Source: Verrucomicrobiaceae bacterium
GTDB taxonomy: Bacteria > Verrucomicrobiota > Verrucomicrobiia > Verrucomicrobiales > Verrucomicrobiaceae
NCBI GenBank assembly: GCA_016795365.1
Contig: JAEUHN010000033.1
Location: forward strand, 1 to 32,555
Direction of reading: 5' to 3'
DNA length: 32,555 nucleotides
The position numbers and the translations under genes are program-made. The notes under the pieces were generated by a model. It saw nothing but the letters and a program-made list of their open reading frames with translations. It had not been told where the DNA came from and did no database searches. Shown piece by piece: positions 2,537-8,371 of this stretch; the stretch's first letter is position 1, and each line of letters begins with the position of its first letter.

Positions 2537-3235
2537 CTACTCGCGCTTGCTGTTGAGATACTTCAGTAACTCGATCGCCTTGTGCTCGGACAGCGCCTCC
2601 AGCATTCCGGGCGGCATCAGCGACGCGGCGGCTTTCGTGTGGTCCTTGAGATCGCTCTTCGCGACGATGATGGACTCGGTGATCGTTCGCACAGTGAGCG
2701 CAGTGGGCGTTTCGTTCTCGATCAAGCCGGACACCACGCTGCCGTCCTTCTTCGTGAGGATGTGGAGTTGGAAATTGTCACCCACGACCGCGTTCGGATC
2801 GACGATGTTCTCCAGGAAGTAGTCGAGCCCATTGCGCCACGAGCCGCCGAGATCAGGCCCGAGCTTACCGCCCACACCACCCATCGCATGGCACACCGCG
2901 CAGACTTGCTGGAAAGTCTGCTCGCCGGACTTCGCATTGAAGGCCCACAGCGGTGCGGACTCATAGGCCTTCTTCAGCTTCGCGATGGTGGCCTTCGCTG
3001 CCGCACTGGACTCGGTGACCTTGCCCAGGGTCTCGTCAATGAGCGCGTTGATCTGGGCGTTGTTGAGGTTGCGCAACTGCCGGACCTGCAAGGCGCTGAG
3101 CCGCGTCTTATCGAAGCGCTTCGCCTTCACCGCATCGAGCAACGGTTTCGCGAGTTCCGCACGACTGGTTAGCGTGTTGAGCGCGGCGCTTTGGTTGGCG
3201 GGGTCGAGGCGGTCAAAACGGTCAAGGAGTGTCAA
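2537..3235 (-). CDS. C-terminal haem-binding part of the split PVC-type dehydrogenase
   Basis: This frame of 232 residues continues the long gene upstream after a frame break. It opens on a TTG inside the 10-bp tandem repeat, and its first residues (TLLDRFDRLDPANQ) join seamlessly to the TALTLLD end of the upstream frame if one repeat copy is removed. It holds the end of the HEAT-like region and the haem-binding domain of the Pirellula/Verrucomicrobium type: CAVCH at residues 112-116 followed by a GGKLGPDLGG loop. Translated alone it has no signal peptide, so it could not be exported for haem attachment. I therefore read it as the detached tail of a broken gene, or as the product of a sequence error, not as an independent protein. 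Confidence 0.85.
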   Translation of the reverse strand: MTLLDRFDRLDPANQSAALNTLTSRAELAKPLLDAVKAKRFDKTRLSALQVRQLRNLNNAQINALIDETLGKVTESSAAAKATIAKLKKAYESAPLWAFNAKSGEQTFQQVCAVCHAMGGVGGKLGPDLGGSWRNGLDYFLENIVDPNAVVGDNFQLHILTKKDGSVVSGLIENETPTALTVRTITESIIVAKSDLKDHTKAAASLMPPGMLEALSEHKAIELLKYLNSKRE

Positions 3236-3247
3236 GGAGTGTCAAGG
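3221..3247. repeat. 10-bp tandem duplication that breaks the dehydrogenase frame
   Basis: On the plus strand GTCAAGGAGT occurs at 3221-3230 and again at 3231-3240, followed by a partial third copy GTCAAGG at 3241-3247. In the gene's own direction the reading is GCC TTG ACA CTC CTT GAC ACT CCT TGA, a stop. Removing exactly one 10-bp copy gives GCC TTG ACA CTC CTT GAC CGT TTT GAC and restores the downstream frame with no other change. The excess of 10 bp is therefore the whole cause of the split. Confidence 0.95.
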
Positions 3248-6200
3248 CCGTTGCTGGGTCGTTGGAACGCGCGAGCAAGGGGATCACCGCCGTGGTGAAC
3301 TCGGGCTGGTCGAGGAGCTTCGCAAAGATCGGTGTCGCGTCGTTGTCGCCGACAAGCTTGAGCAAGTCGAACGCGGCGCGGCGCGCGGCGATGGGCTTCG
3401 TGGCATCGGCGAGTGTGGTGCGTTTCTGCTCGAGCACTTCCTTGTCGCCAAACAAAGCGGAGAGCTGATTCACGGTTTCGAGTTTCGAATTTCGAGCTTT
3501 CACCTCCATCCACGCTTTCGGCATCGGCACGGTGGCTTCGTCTTTGAGAGCAAAGGCGAGCATCTTCAGGCTGCGCTCGGCGAGTTCGTCGGATTGCTTC
3601 GCGACGCTGGCGACGAAGGCCTCGCGTCCGGCAGTGTCCTTGCACGCACACCAGCGGATGCTGTCCGCGAGCGACGGCATGGGTGTGCGGTCAGCGAGGG
3701 CTAGTAGGTCAGGCATTCTGCCTGACACGGGGGCAGCGGGGATTCTGCCCGCTGAGTCGTCGGGTAGAATACCCGACGCACTGGCGACAGGTGAAACACC
3801 TGTCCTACTCGCAAGCCCAAACCAGATCATCTTCGGCAGGAAGCGGTCGTCCTTGTCCTCTGCGTGCATCGCGAGCGCGCTGCCGACGTCGAAGGCCCAG
3901 TCAGCGGGCAAGGCGGGCATCGCGGAGGCGAGAGCGAGACGCACGACCGGCGAGGGGTCGTCTTTGGCGAGCTTTACCAAGGTCTCGCGCCTGACCTTTG
4001 GTTTGCCGGGCTCTTCAGTGGCGAGTTGGATGGCCCAGGAGCGGACGGTTTCATCTTGGTCCTCGACAGCTTGCTCAAAGAGGATGTCTAGCCCGCTTAC
4101 CTCTTGCGCGGCGGTCCACAGTGCTTTGAGATATTGACCGGCAGACAGGTCTTCGTTGCCGACCATCGTCATGAGCGCTTGAAGTGACTTCGCGCTGAGT
4201 TCTCCATCCCTCTCCTGGAGCATTCGTTGAGCCATGCGTGGGTGCCAATCGTTGGAATGGGACAGCAGACCGACCAATTCCACATCACTCATCTTCCCCA
4301 AATCCACCTTCACCGGCTTATACGTCGCCTTCCAAGAGATTCGATAAATCCGCCCGTTTGTCCGATCCCACTTCTCATCCTCCGGATTGTGGCAGTGCTG
4401 CGTGTCGGCCCAGTCGATGATATACACCGCGCCGTCGGGACCGGTTTGGAGATCGACGGGGATGTAGTGCTCGTCGCCGCAGAACATCAGGTCGTAGCCT
4501 GCGTGCAGGGTCTCGTAGCCGCTGCCTTCGCGAACCATGTGCTGCTGGTTCATTTGGTGACCGTGCAGGTTGTGGGTGAAGAGATGGTCGCGGTAGATAG
4601 AGGGAAAATTGTCGCCGTTGTAGATCATGGTGCCGACATGGGAGTGGCCGCCATACACGGCAGTCGTTCCCGGCTTGCCTGCGCCACCCTCGCCGCTGTC
4701 ATACTTCGCGGAGGCGGGCAGGTAGTTTTGCAAAGCGGGTGCGAAGTCGGGTGCTGTGGCGCTGACGTAGCTCGGGTAGTTCGCGTTGGATTGATTCCAA
4801 AAGATGCCATTGCGGATCGCGTTTGTGGTGCCGCCCTTGCCCCAAAAGCTGCGGCAGTGCGTCATGAAGAGATGGCCGCTGCTGTTGTAGTCCAGGCCCC
4901 ACTGGTTAGAGCCGCCGTGGCAGAAGACCTCAGACACATGCCGCACCGGATGATAACGCCACACGCCGCTGCGCAGTTCGATGCGATCCTTCGCATCGCT
5001 GCCGGGCTTGCCGATGTGCGCGGTGTTGAACACGCCCTGATTGCCGTAGAGCCAGCCGTCCGGTCCCCAGAGAAAGGAGTTCAGCGTCTCATGGGTGTCC
5101 TGATAGCCGAAGCCGTCCAGGAGGATGTGGGCGGTGAATGACAACCCTGGGGGCTGCGGATAGGACTTATAAGTCTCATGCGACTTATGAGTCCAATTAA
5201 GAGGCACCGTGCGGTCGCCATCGCTGGGGATGAAAAGCAGGTAAGGAGCTGCCCCCACCCACACGCCACCGAAGCCGACTTCGATGCCACTGACGAGATT
5301 TAACCCCTCACAGAAGATCTTGTGCGTCTCGAAGCTACCATCGCCATCGCTGTCTTCGAAGATACTGATGCGATCCTTGCCTTGGCCTTCCGGTTGACGG
5401 TTCGGATAGCTGAACGCCTCGGCCACCCAGATGCGACCACGTTCATCGAAGCAGAAGGCGATGGGCTGCTTCACATCCGGTTCGGCGGCTATGAGATCGG
5501 CTTGAAAACCATCCTGCAACTTCATGCCCGCGACGAGCTTCTGCGCTGCCTCGTTCTTCACGCTCGTGGGCTTGGCGGGGTTCGGCGTCAGGTGCCAGAG
5601 GACGGGGCTTTCATCGCCGCGCTTGGATCGATCACCGCTGATCGTGATGCCTTGCGGCTTGGCGAACTTCGGCTCGGTGTCGTGAAACACGAAGTCATCG
5701 AAATTGACGTGTCCCCAGCCGCGCGTGCTCTGATCGACGATGCGGATGAAGATGCGTTTGCCGATGAGGCTCGTGAGATTCACCGCCACGCGCTGCAGAT
5801 TCTCCACCTGCGCACCATGGCCGGTGTGAATGACCTTGCCCGTGGCTTCCTCGACAATCTCCACGCGTTCCTCGCTTACGTTTGGTGCCGCGCCGACGAG
5901 ATAGCTCGCCCACGGATGTGTGACATCGAAGGCCAACGAGGTGAGCGCGCCTGTTCCCTTGTCGCCACTGCGCTCGTAGCCACCGAGCCAGAACTTGCCG
6001 ACGTGCTGTGAGTTGCCGCGCTTGCGAACTGCGACGGTGTCGCCTTCGACGGGTTGCCTCTCCCATGCGTTTCCTTCTGCTGTCCAGCCGTCGAGCGTGC
6101 CCTTCTCGAAGCCCAAGTTCAGTGCTGCGGACGGCGCAACGCTTTCAGGCATTTCAGCTTTTGGCTTTCCCGACTCAGCTATGGCAATGTCGCGCTTCGG

Positions 6201-6899
6201 CATCTCAGTCTTTCCCAAGTCAGTCAGCTGGATGTTGCGAAACTGAATCTTCGACGGCCCCGGTCCTGAATGAAGCTGAAACGCGAGCTTGCCGGACCAC
6301 TCGGCATCTTTCGCGTCGTGATCATCGAGCACGCTGAAGAGCACGTCATTGATGCGCACCTCGACGTGCGAGGCCGTAGCGGTGATTTGATACTTGTTCC
6401 AGTCGTGGAACTTCACGAAGCTCTCCAAGCTCTTCGGCTCGGCGAACACATCCGTCCACTTGCGACCATCGGGCGCAATGCTCACACGTTGACCGCGCTC
6501 GCAGATCAGCGCACGACCATGCTCGTCGTAGATGCGACCGAGCCATACCTTGCCGTCATCAAGATCAGCCTGATAACCGGAAGCGTGACCGTCGTCGTGC
6601 TGCTGACATCGATACTGGATGCCACTGTTCGCACTCGGGCCGCCGGTGATCTTGAACTCGCAGGTGAAGTCGAAGTCATTCACCTCGCCGTCCCAGAAGA
6701 TCCATTGGTTCCCCTTGAGCGCATCGCCCTCCTTGATCTCGCCGGTGATGCAACCGTCCTCCACGCGCCAATGCTCGGGCTTGCCAGACCAGTGGTTCAG
6801 CGTCTTGCCATCGAAGATCGACACAGGCCTAGCCTCACCTGCCGAAAGGCTGGCGGTCACGGCGCACCAGACAAAGACGATCGAATAGTATGTTCTCAT
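3222..6899 (-). CDS. DUF1080 / PVC-type membrane-bound dehydrogenase fusion, frameshifted before its haem domain
   Basis: This encodes 1225 residues; with the frame repaired the protein would be 1450 residues. Domains in order: signal peptide 1-22; DUF1080 (3-keto-disaccharide hydrolase-like) about 26-228 (SIFDGKTLNHW, WRVEDGCITGE, NSGIQYR); a galactose-binding-like beta domain about 258-406 (NLGFEKGTLDGW, VNFDDFVFHD); PVC-dehydrogenase N-terminal propeller about 458-860 (GFQADLIAAEP, FDERGRIWVAEAFSYP, SFLWGPDGWLYGNQGVFN, QTGPDGAVYIIDW); HEAT-like repeats to the end. The haem motif lies in the adjoining frame. The start is the ATG at 6899, giving MRTYYSIVFVW and a good leader; the ATG at 6953 is an alternative. 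Two palindromic elements sit in frame at residues about 569-579 and 1032-1064. The PQQ-like gene is 185 bp upstream. The product is expected in the periplasm or at the membrane, passing electrons to haem; the substrate is unknown. Confidence 0.85.
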   Translation of the reverse strand: MRTYYSIVFVWCAVTASLSAGEARPVSIFDGKTLNHWSGKPEHWRVEDGCITGEIKEGDALKGNQWIFWDGEVNDFDFTCEFKITGGPSANSGIQYRCQQHDDGHASGYQADLDDGKVWLGRIYDEHGRALICERGQRVSIAPDGRKWTDVFAEPKSLESFVKFHDWNKYQITATASHVEVRINDVLFSVLDDHDAKDAEWSGKLAFQLHSGPGPSKIQFRNIQLTDLGKTEMPKRDIAIAESGKPKAEMPESVAPSAALNLGFEKGTLDGWTAEGNAWERQPVEGDTVAVRKRGNSQHVGKFWLGGYERSGDKGTGALTSLAFDVTHPWASYLVGAAPNVSEERVEIVEEATGKVIHTGHGAQVENLQRVAVNLTSLIGKRIFIRIVDQSTRGWGHVNFDDFVFHDTEPKFAKPQGITISGDRSKRGDESPVLWHLTPNPAKPTSVKNEAAQKLVAGMKLQDGFQADLIAAEPDVKQPIAFCFDERGRIWVAEAFSYPNRQPEGQGKDRISIFEDSDGDGSFETHKIFCEGLNLVSGIEVGFGGVWVGAAPYLLFIPSDGDRTVPLNWTHKSHETYKSYPQPPGLSFTAHILLDGFGYQDTHETLNSFLWGPDGWLYGNQGVFNTAHIGKPGSDAKDRIELRSGVWRYHPVRHVSEVFCHGGSNQWGLDYNSSGHLFMTHCRSFWGKGGTTNAIRNGIFWNQSNANYPSYVSATAPDFAPALQNYLPASAKYDSGEGGAGKPGTTAVYGGHSHVGTMIYNGDNFPSIYRDHLFTHNLHGHQMNQQHMVREGSGYETLHAGYDLMFCGDEHYIPVDLQTGPDGAVYIIDWADTQHCHNPEDEKWDRTNGRIYRISWKATYKPVKVDLGKMSDVELVGLLSHSNDWHPRMAQRMLQERDGELSAKSLQALMTMVGNEDLSAGQYLKALWTAAQEVSGLDILFEQAVEDQDETVRSWAIQLATEEPGKPKVRRETLVKLAKDDPSPVVRLALASAMPALPADWAFDVGSALAMHAEDKDDRFLPKMIWFGLASRTGVSPVASASGILPDDSAGRIPAAPVSGRMPDLLALADRTPMPSLADSIRWCACKDTAGREAFVASVAKQSDELAERSLKMLAFALKDEATVPMPKAWMEVKARNSKLETVNQLSALFGDKEVLEQKRTTLADATKPIAARRAAFDLLKLVGDNDATPIFAKLLDQPEFTTAVIPLLARSNDPATALTLLDTP
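3476..3496. repeat. three tandem 7-bp units inside the dehydrogenase gene
   Basis: The plus strand reads TTTCGAG, TTTCGAA, TTTCGAG in direct succession. The 21-bp block keeps the frame and encodes part of a KARNSKLETVNQ stretch in the HEAT-like region. It has an internal palindromic core (TTCGAA). Confidence 0.7.
3708..3804. repeat. cluster of four short palindromes inserted in frame in the dehydrogenase gene
   Basis: Four stem-loops follow one another. Palindrome 1 at 3708-3726 has arms GTCAGGCA/TGCCTGAC around TTC. Palindrome 2 at 3734-3754 has arms CAGCGGG/CCCGCTG around 7 nt. Palindrome 3 at 3759-3777 has arms GTCGGGTA/TACCCGAC around GAA. Palindrome 4 at 3786-3804 has arms GACAGGTG/CACCTGTC around AAA. 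In the minus-strand frame they encode TGVSPVAS, SGILPDDS, GRIPAAP and SGRMPDLL, Gly/Pro-rich peptide unlike the surrounding HEAT-type helices. Three of the four have perfect 8-bp arms and a 3-nt loop, so they are one family of elements with different arm sequences. Confidence 0.85.
5163..5194. repeat. 32-bp near-perfect palindrome in frame in the dehydrogenase propeller
   Basis: The element starts GGACTTATAAGTC and ends GACTTATGAGTCC around a CATG centre. It equals its own reverse complement except at two symmetric base pairs. In the minus-strand frame it encodes THKSHETYKS at residues about 570-579. This stretch lies between SDGD and ILLDGFGYQD, which in my recollection of this family are joined by only a short loop. 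It looks like a second, unrelated palindromic element taken up without loss of frame. Confidence 0.75.
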
Positions 6900-6944
6900 G
6901 GTAACCCGAGCGGCGAGGAATGATTGATGCAAACGATCACGAAG

Positions 6945-6962
6945 GTTAGACATGCGTCTAAC
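6945..6962. promoter_or_regulatory. inverted repeat upstream of the dehydrogenase fusion
   Basis: The sequence GTTAGACATGCGTCTAAC has perfect 7-bp arms with a 4-nt centre. It lies 45 bp upstream of the preferred start at 6899 and covers the alternative ATG at 6953. It is a candidate operator for a dimeric regulator or a leader hairpin; no regulator gene is next to it. Confidence 0.4.
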
Positions 6963-6991
6963 GCTTGAACACATCGCACACTGGGACGTGC

Positions 6992-7005
6992 TCCTTGCGC
7001 AAGGA
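6992..7005. promoter_or_regulatory. 14-bp perfect palindrome in the PQQ-dehydrogenase gap
   Basis: TCCTTGCGCAAGGA reads the same on both strands. It is in the 185-bp gap between the PQQ-like gene and the dehydrogenase fusion, about 30 bp upstream of the 6945 inverted repeat. It is a possible protein-binding site; the function is inferred only from symmetry and position. Confidence 0.35.
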
Positions 7006-7032
7006 TTGGCTGACCGCGGCCGGATAGCAGTG

Positions 7033-7067
7033 TCACCACTCCGCCTACACGGCTTGAAAAGTGGTGA
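7033..7067 (-). terminator. hairpin just after the PQQ-like gene
   Basis: Arms TCACCACT (7033-7040) and AGTGGTGA (7060-7067) are perfect inverted copies around a 19-nt loop that itself contains a GCC/GGC pair. The hairpin begins about 18 bp after the PQQ-like stop codon in the direction of transcription. There is no T-run after it, so it may be a partial terminator, a processing site or a stabilising stem instead of a classical intrinsic terminator. Confidence 0.35.
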
Positions 7068-7084
7068 GACAAACACTCCTTCGA

Positions 7085-8371
7085 TCAAGGCAACGGAGCC
7101 GCCTTGCTGCCGATACACCAGAGCATCTTCTCCGTGCGCACGTAGATGCGGCTGTCGCCGATCGCGGGCGAGGAGTTCACTGGGCTGTCGAGTTTGCTCG
7201 CGGAGAGTTGCTCGAACTTGGGCCCAGCCTTCACAACAATGAGGTCGCCCTGCTGGCTGGCGGCGTAGATCTTGCCATCGGCGGCCACGGGGCTGCTGAA
7301 GAACTTGCTGCTGCCCTTGCTGCCATTGAGGCGCTCTTCGTAGATGACCTTGCCGGTCTTGAACTCGACCGCGCGCATGATGCCGCCATCGCCCACGAGA
7401 TACATCGTGTCGCCAATGACGAGCGGCGAGGGCACATAAGGCAGGCCTTTGGGGATGTCGAACTTCACGGGCTCGGGCTTGCCGGACTTGAGGTCGATAG
7501 CAGCGATCTCCTTCACCCCACCACCGGTGCCGAAGGTGCAGAAGTAGAAGTCATCGCTGATGACGCCGGAGCCGAGGCTGCGCTGGGTCTGGCCGGGGTT
7601 GTGCTGCCAGTTGAGCTTGCCAGTCTTGGTATCAATGCCCATGACGCCGCTGCCGGTATCGGCGCAGATAAACTCGTTGGTGCCGGCTTTGGTCTTGTGA
7701 ACGACTGGCGTGGAGAAGGTGTTGAGGCAGTTGGGGATTTCGTTCTTCCACACCTGCTTGCCCGTCGCGGCGTCGAGGCCCACGATGCAGGCCTTCCACT
7801 TCTGCTGCACGGGATCGTCGGTATAGACCTTGCCATCGCGCTGCCAGTCGAACTCGCTGCGCACGATCATGATGCCATCGGCCACGACAGGCGACACGCC
7901 CGTGCCGTGCTCGTGGATGTAATCGGCGACGTGCTCATTGAACCACACGCGCTTGCCCGTGTGATCGAGGGCCAACGCTTGGATCGTGGTGCCGGTGCTC
8001 CAGTTCACGTAGATGCGATCGGCATCCACGAAGGGCGAGCTGGAGGCGAAGGAATTGAAGTTGTGAATCTTGTGCGCCACGAAGGTCTCCTCGTGCCGCC
8101 ACAGCTCCTTGCCGTCCTTGGCCGAGAGCGCGATCACGGCACGCTTGCCATCGCCGGTCTCGGCGGTGACGATCACCTTGTCCTTCCACAACACGGGTGA
8201 GGACCAGCCTTTGCCCAGCTCGACCTTCCAGACCGTGTTCGAGTCATCGACCGTGGTCGGCATGTTGGTGGTCTCGGCGACGCCGGAGCCATTCGGACCG
8301 CGGAAGCGGCTCCAATCAGCAGCGGTGGCAAGGGTGGAGACGAGGCAAAGGAGAGCGAGCGTTGGTTTCAT
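7085..8371 (-). CDS. exported PQQ-like beta-propeller repeat protein
   Basis: This encodes 428 residues from the ATG at 8371, which gives a clean Sec signal peptide (MKPTLALLCLVSTLATA, cleavage before ADWSRF). The mature protein begins WSRFRGPNGSGVAET, the hallmark start of PVC PQQ-like repeat proteins. It continues with repeated blade motifs: VWKVELGKGWSSPVLW, VIALSAKDGKELWRHE, CIVGLDAATGKQVWKNE and VMGIDTKTGKLNWQHN. About seven to eight blades can be placed. Many proteins of this family lack proven PQQ binding, and I see no residue that decides it. It is followed by the dehydrogenase fusion on the same strand, and it is divergent from the DUF6797 gene with 114 bp between the starts. The role is likely periplasmic, either sugar or alcohol oxidation or scaffolding. 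Confidence 0.88.
   Translation of the reverse strand: MKPTLALLCLVSTLATAADWSRFRGPNGSGVAETTNMPTTVDDSNTVWKVELGKGWSSPVLWKDKVIVTAETGDGKRAVIALSAKDGKELWRHEETFVAHKIHNFNSFASSSPFVDADRIYVNWSTGTTIQALALDHTGKRVWFNEHVADYIHEHGTGVSPVVADGIMIVRSEFDWQRDGKVYTDDPVQQKWKACIVGLDAATGKQVWKNEIPNCLNTFSTPVVHKTKAGTNEFICADTGSGVMGIDTKTGKLNWQHNPGQTQRSLGSGVISDDFYFCTFGTGGGVKEIAAIDLKSGKPEPVKFDIPKGLPYVPSPLVIGDTMYLVGDGGIMRAVEFKTGKVIYEERLNGSKGSSKFFSSPVAADGKIYAASQQGDLIVVKAGPKFEQLSASKLDSPVNSSPAIGDSRIYVRTEKMLWCIGSKAAPLP

Follow-up and report, generated by a model that had tools for sequence, protein, structure and literature searches.

An in-frame GTAG-type REP composite, probably moved by a RAYT-family transposase, in a predicted loop of a verrucomicrobial HEAT-repeat protein

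What is a row of four inverted repeats doing inside an uninterrupted protein-coding frame? The question is raised by one locus in the window, by which we mean the whole 32,555-nucleotide stretch of Verrucomicrobiaceae DNA that was analysed (contig JAEUHN010000033.1 of assembly GCA_016795365.1). An earlier note, made from the letters alone, had placed four adjacent palindromes at positions 3708 to 3804, and they are indeed there, in a unit that proved slightly longer (3704-3808). The unit begins with the tetranucleotide GTAG on the plus strand (3704-3707), followed by hairpin 1 (3708-3726; GTCAGGCA-TTC-TGCCTGAC, 8-bp arms and loop TTC), hairpin 2 (3734-3754; imperfect, with seven perfect outer pairs around 7 nucleotides), hairpin 3 (3758-3778; CGTCGGGTA-GAA-TACCCGACG, 9-bp arms and loop GAA) and hairpin 4 (3786-3804; GACAGGTG-AAA-CACCTGTC, 8-bp arms and loop AAA), and it ends with CTAC (3805-3808), which is GTAG on the minus strand. 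Three of the stem-loops thus have perfect arms, as had been claimed, but of 8, 9 and 8 bp rather than all of 8 bp; an alternative reading of hairpin 2 from the sequence has 9-bp arms, with a single mismatch, around a TTC loop. The order GTAG-H1-H2-H3-H4-CTAC forms one unit of 105 bp, or 35 codons, whose coding strand is the minus strand and which lies in frame, with no stop, in the host gene. It encodes the 35-residue peptide SRTGVSPVASASGILPDDSAGRIPAAPVSGRMPDL, with 4 Gly, 5 Pro, 6 Ser and 5 Ala; the former estimate was of about 33 Gly/Pro-rich residues, and Gly/Pro/Ser/Ala-rich is the better label.

The host gene (3222-7118, minus strand) encodes a 3-keto-disaccharide-hydrolase-type domain, a PVC-type heme-binding CxxCH N-terminal domain (TIGR02604, DUF7133) and HEAT repeats, and the palindromic element is read in frame in the HEAT region of this PVC protein, as first described. 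A separate minus-strand frame (2537-3235) encodes a putative heme-binding CxxCH domain (TIGR02603) that would be expected at the C-terminus of the host protein, and many of the host homologues among the matches listed are longer, at about 1,370-1,455 aa. A 10-bp tandem repeat with 2.7 perfect copies (3221-3247) marks the point where the cytochrome frame separates from the host frame; it may be a genuine break in the frame, a slippage site or the result of misassembly. As the gene reads in this sequence, it is interrupted before the cytochrome domain, so the window copy need not make a working protein.

The earlier note had suggested aligning homologues, on the grounds that the same residues at this site across genera would mark the insert as ordinary protein sequence. 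The alignment gave the opposite picture: the interval spans 36 residues in the window protein and 10-11 in 109 of 119 homologues (the best 120 of the 179 matches listed, minus the window's own two entries). The remaining ten have longer loops. A clearly related peptide occupies the same place in P0005-P0007, a different one, which may be another frame of such an element, is found in P0003 and P0004, and other inserts are present in P0009, P0013, P0014, P0018 and P0035; the site is thus a permissive loop. Compared with homologues that lack the insert, the window protein gains about 25 residues (36 against 11 in the compared interval) and not 35, which indicates that the insertion site is not clean. 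In an AlphaFold model of a 459-residue fragment, the insert (residues 265-299) is a coil whose pLDDT falls to 44-53 in the middle, against about 95 in the flanking helices, and its last few residues join the next helix. An ortholog from another genus, in genome G434 (L120/L179), has a four-hairpin element at the same site, in which 22 stem pairs are unchanged relative to the window, 6 are changed on both sides and 3 are broken.

Could the hairpins have been formed by ordinary codons through chance? Taken singly, hairpins of this size are within chance in the window, where we counted 5 with arms of at least 8 bp and loops of 3-7 nucleotides, against 1-7 in ten first-order Markov shuffles. What lies beyond chance is the cluster, that is, the GTAG...CTAC frame with its conserved four-hairpin order, which recurs with covarying stems in unrelated genes and genomes. 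Together with the 109 homologues that have no insert, this recurrence leaves a chance origin in ordinary protein sequence with a practically negligible probability.

Further composites were found in the window's own genome (G000), in a CysJ-type flavoprotein, a DmsBC-type frame and, more weakly (63 bits), a UvrA frame, so that the element is repeated in this genome at four full-length places (one of them weak) plus a partial one. Six matches to the pattern GTAGGNCAGG...CCTGNC were found in the own genome, the window accounting for two, and the reversed control gave none. Beside a putative tRNA gene lies a half composite of two hairpins (G000:C32:354802-354854, L039). In an alignment of seven copies, 97.2% of the 217 stem cells are paired and 14 of the 31 pairs have changed on both sides; the arm sequences are varied, as had been remarked from the window alone, and many of the variations are paired changes. 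A covariance model, R1, built from these seven aligned copies scores the window at 111.4 bits (E 4.9e-20 in 247,527 bases), the window copy being itself one of the seven training copies, and finds matches at E <= 0.01 in 40 of 68 genomes of the family. With both strands counted, the most were in G005 (56), G006 (51), G434 (44), G007 (39) and G432 (30). Other searches were narrower: a one-copy DNA search matched 8 of 57 relatives, and a strict outer-hairpin pattern, which is too narrow, matched 3 of 387 phylum genomes (the own genome included) and, across GTDB species genomes, 50 stretches, of which 39 come from records with PVC titles and 11 from other or unspecified ones. The genome-wide search for arm-loop-arm elements that had been proposed was run on 400 kb of the own genome with 8-bp arms and 3-nt loops, and it yielded only a mild excess (15 against 4.3 expected). 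Because the excess is mild and 6 of the 15 hairpins adjoin RAYT-family genes with other palindrome types, such counts are the wrong test.

The features of these copies mark the element as a composite of the GTAG REP type. In REPINs, two nearby REPs stand in inverted orientation with their tags outward, and the window element has this form, with GTAG...CTAC as a close inverted pair across 105 bp, as does the seven-copy alignment. A GTAG tetranucleotide lies at the end of a short stem-loop at 3704-3726 and, inverted, at 3786-3808. The copy number in the own genome is low, counting this composite type only, whereas such REPs usually exceed 100 copies per genome according to the abstract of PMC2817692. 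The earlier note had likened the insert to the palindromic elements of Rickettsia (RPEs), now in a PVC bacterium. The behaviour is similar, in that a short in-frame palindromic element encodes tens of residues in unrelated proteins, but the window element ends in GTAG/CTAC and goes with the GTAG REPs, not with the CGTC end stated for R. conorii (passages of PMC3733652); we regard the proposed kinship as highly improbable.

The reading phase was analysed at 43 places, comprising the 42 best-scoring R1 matches and the weaker own-genome place G000:C51, with all seven model-building copies among them. The length is exactly 108 bp in 18 of the 43. At 37 places the element lies in an open frame that is 300 aa or longer and extends for 30 codons or more before it and 20 or more after it, a placement by open frames that favours in-frame copies and hides broken genes; the other six (L173, L180, L182, L187, L189 and L206) are outside such long frames. 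On both strands of 42 copies (one containing N was excluded), 64 of 84 cases have phase 2 open, 57 phase 0 and 7 phase 1, the last being mostly closed because GTAG there gives a TAG stop. Phase 2 is the one used by 31 host frames and phase 0 by the other 6, or 19 to 4 when collapsed by flanking residues, on our reading, to 23 sites. Element length modulo 3 in the 37 long frames is 0 in 23, 1 in 11 and 2 in 3, so that the frame is not kept by length alone and small edge or internal indels must restore it in some cases. In 17 of the 18 host frames scanned, the element has Pfam matches on either side, a few of these matches being below the Pfam cut-off; in the eighteenth (L186, AcrB-type) one Pfam stretch begins just after the element and a second is unplaced. 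Hosts named by their domains include MetH, HrpA-, Lhr- and Mfd-type proteins, Cas4-Cas1, CysJ, UvrA and a penicillin-binding protein, while L169, L175, L190 and L208 have open frames only and are candidate genes. The MetH frame of L184 (G456) is 1,661 aa long and has, before its B12-binding domain, the composite and more than 300 further residues.

Has the composite been recruited as a functional linker or a regulatory RNA and been retained for its peptide or RNA? Same-site copies do persist across genera, and their stems vary less than the unpaired positions do: comparisons at the same site, 13 in number, some with rows in common and all on an alignment fitted to structure, contained 22 compensatory, 3 one-sided and 22 broken stem pairs. 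Yet the composite peptides evolve nearly freely (dN/dS 0.82 and 0.89, against 0.14-0.17 for the host parts, in one gene pair described below), the hosts are unrelated proteins, and an Rfam scan of window positions 3600-3900 returned no match. Recruitment is thus unlikely, though it is the alternative that we would least readily dismiss. In one genus, CysJ-type flavoproteins (L201 in G000, L204 in G001) have composites at roughly matching positions, where the flavodoxin domain gives way to the FAD domain, and the stem sequences of these composites differ.

The gene pair that gave these dN/dS values connects the composite with a transposase. In L171 (G434) and L192 (G432), one oxidoreductase frame contains a composite, a RAYT-family transposase and a second composite; the association of REPs with a RAYT is thus seen in these two relatives. 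The whole unit sits between the zinc-dehydrogenase part and the Gfo/Idh/MocA part of the host in a single open frame of 984 aa (G434) or 982 aa (G432), with a transposase part of about 205 residues that includes a Y1_Tnp domain (the Pfam scan was of the G434 copy); at the same place in G006, the oxidoreductase (736 aa) has one composite only. The Y1_Tnp match in L171 scores 32.0 bits, above the Pfam cut-off of 23, and the protein has the motifs of a RAYT, with an HUH motif NHVH and a tyrosine motif REYIGQNP. The NCBIfam model REP_Tyr_transpos is the best model for all four proteins compared, but its scores of 50.2-70.6 bits lie below its cut-off of 80, and the only PDB match of the L171 segment is TnpArep 4ER8 (E 0.003). 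Nei-Gojobori counting between G434 and G432 gives the transposase part a dN/dS of 0.076, the two host parts 0.167 and 0.138, and the composites (36 codons each) 0.82 and 0.89; these ratios are rough because synonymous distances range from 0.36 to 1.39. These values argue that the transposase is kept as a protein while the composite peptides are nearly free to change. In the own genome, no composite outer stem was found within 1.5 kb on either side of 10 RAYT-family loci, most of which have palindromes of their own (the L008 stem resembles the inner hairpins), and a RAYT matching the window composite was not found there, a result that counts against the mechanism favoured below.

RAYT-family domains also occur in frame inside other enzymes: LeuRS in G006 (L239) and G011 (L244), RecG in G005 and G001, HsdR-like frames in G006 and G001, a NUDIX frame in G007 and G006, and a glycosyltransferase frame in G007 and G435. 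These host names are our reading of the translations, except for the G011 LeuRS fusion (P0122), for which Pfam domains were listed. Of ten other frames, eight (L251-L258) are genes standing on their own and two (L243 and L250) look spurious. When proteins of about 624-1,986 aa were searched with the insert of the LeuRS fusion, there were 1,050 matches at E <= 1e-8; by our own count, 103 of the best 120 have a LeuRS-type Pfam set, and the rest of the 120 include AlaRS, MetH, IspG, CarB, DNA methylases and helicases, some of these names being read from Pfam numbers. A MetH-type protein with Y1_Tnp (P0128) is among the matches listed, as is a LeuRS fusion of the cultured verrucomicrobium Roseibacillus persicicus. 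The oxidoreductase insert gave at least 1,203 matches at E <= 1e-10 from 7,993 candidates, and the best 120 include the oxidoreductase, many CarB proteins, DinG/Rad3-like helicases and adenosine deaminase; the two match sets overlap. A loose pattern applied over the whole protein detected [ND]HxH in 118 of the 120 LeuRS-insert matches listed, with a later Y motif also in 113. In 49 aligned LeuRS fusions, the HUH histidines and the tyrosine are invariant, and a loose REP-type peptide pattern is present at the right junction in all 49 and at the left in 46, several fusions carrying the peptide in tandem. One AlphaFold model of a LeuRS fusion, of medium quality (mean pLDDT 67.7, pTM 0.50) and used only for its low-confidence junctions, places both junctions below 50. 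A further interruption of the LeuRS match, near residue 144 of the C-terminal part in several genomes, points to another site prone to insertion.

The fused leuS is the only LeuRS gene detected in G011 and G006 (genome completeness 96% and 92%): a search with the LeuRS C-terminal part at E <= 1e-30 hit a single place in G011 and, split into two pieces, a single gene in G006. For the LeuRS pair, dN/dS is 0.174 for the transposase and 0.115 and 0.156 for the host parts; for the RecG pair, 0.219 against 0.333 and 0.142; and for the NUDIX pair, 0.222 against 0.175, the glycosyltransferase pair being not computable. Judged by these ratios, the transposase is constrained in the three pairs, but no more than its host, and the overall range of 0.08-0.22 in the four computable pairs shows purifying selection.

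The presence of whole transposase domains in frame in essential enzymes, and of hairpins that largely keep their pairing, might suggest that the inserts are removed by translational bypass, RNA excision or intein-like splicing, leaving a finished host protein without them. Neither bypass nor RNA excision, however, would need open frames or a preference for one phase, and the Pfam results list no intein domain; removal of the insert is therefore very unlikely in our estimation.

We favour the reading, to which we assign a probability of roughly 85%, that the window insert is an in-frame four-hairpin GTAG-type REP composite. On this reading the element is likely mobile and non-autonomous; a RAYT-family HUH transposase probably moves it in single-stranded form, and its translation is predicted to give a flexible loop that joins two HEAT helices. 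The E. coli RAYT recognises GTAG hairpins as single strands (passages of PMC3733652), and a RAYT-family transposase probably recognises the hairpins here in the same way and copies or moves the composite. Genes would be hit at about the same rate as other DNA, with selection removing the insertions that disrupt the frame. The survivors would mostly use the phase whose translation is Gly/Pro/Ser-rich (RTGxxPV...GILP...GRMP) and would sit in loops or between domains. At old sites the hairpins could stay largely paired through selection at the DNA level or through palindrome-correcting mutation, a possible cause of kept stem pairing. More broadly, and with somewhat better than even odds, we suggest that Verrucomicrobiota and their relatives harbour a REP/RAYT class that inserts in frame into housekeeping, often essential genes (leuS, alaS, carB, metH, ispG and recG) and persists, much as inteins do, as translated loops or domains, with the host's need for the gene protecting the parasite and driving its expression; the window element would be a short, transposase-less member of this class. 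Such a class, predicted from sequence, would be a model for a transposon that lives inside essential proteins without splicing, and it bears on where proteins tolerate new domains and how new linkers arise. Many annotated enzymes of these bacteria may hold transposon-encoded segments, recognisable by TGVPPV, GILP or TGETPVP.

How does this compare with known systems? GTAG REPs occur inside ORFs, with the highest number in Opitutus terrae, a verrucomicrobium, and REP-encoded inserts have 20-30 residues, or 43-82 in Thauera and R. conorii (passages of PMC3733652); since ORF-internal GTAG REPs have been described there, in-frame REPs in PVC bacteria are already known. The window element resembles GTAG REPs, BIMEs and REPINs in its GTAG at the end of a short stem with a short loop, its inverted pairs with GTAG outward and its ORF-internal copies, but the GTAG REPs of those passages are singletons, dimers and grouped repeats, most of them intergenic, whereas the set examined here is a fixed four-hairpin composite of about 108 bp, mostly in open frames and in one phase. 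The composites flanking a RAYT-family gene in G434 and G432 recall REPtrons, in which a RAYT/TnpAREP gene is flanked by REPs (passages of PMC3733652 and PMC8266576), but in these two genomes the entire unit is part of a host enzyme's reading frame. The passages of these two papers, and the literature listings, contain no description of an in-frame, host-internal REPtron, and the terms 'in-frame' and 'inside' are absent from those of PMC8266576. A literature search over titles and the beginnings of abstracts, including few subscription papers, returned nothing on in-frame transposases inside essential genes, and the intein-like REP/RAYT lifestyle behind the window element is apparently undescribed so far. 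Rickettsia RPEs share the in-frame insertion into unrelated proteins but differ in their CGTC end, CGTC repeats having no dedicated transposase (passages of PMC3733652). The name REP implies an extragenic position, and RAYTs are regarded as genes of their own; in the present cases both lie in frame inside host genes. Inteins are likewise selfish elements translated inside essential proteins, with the mobility enzyme within the frame; in contrast to them, the Pfam results here include no splicing domain, and the mobility enzyme is an HUH transposase.
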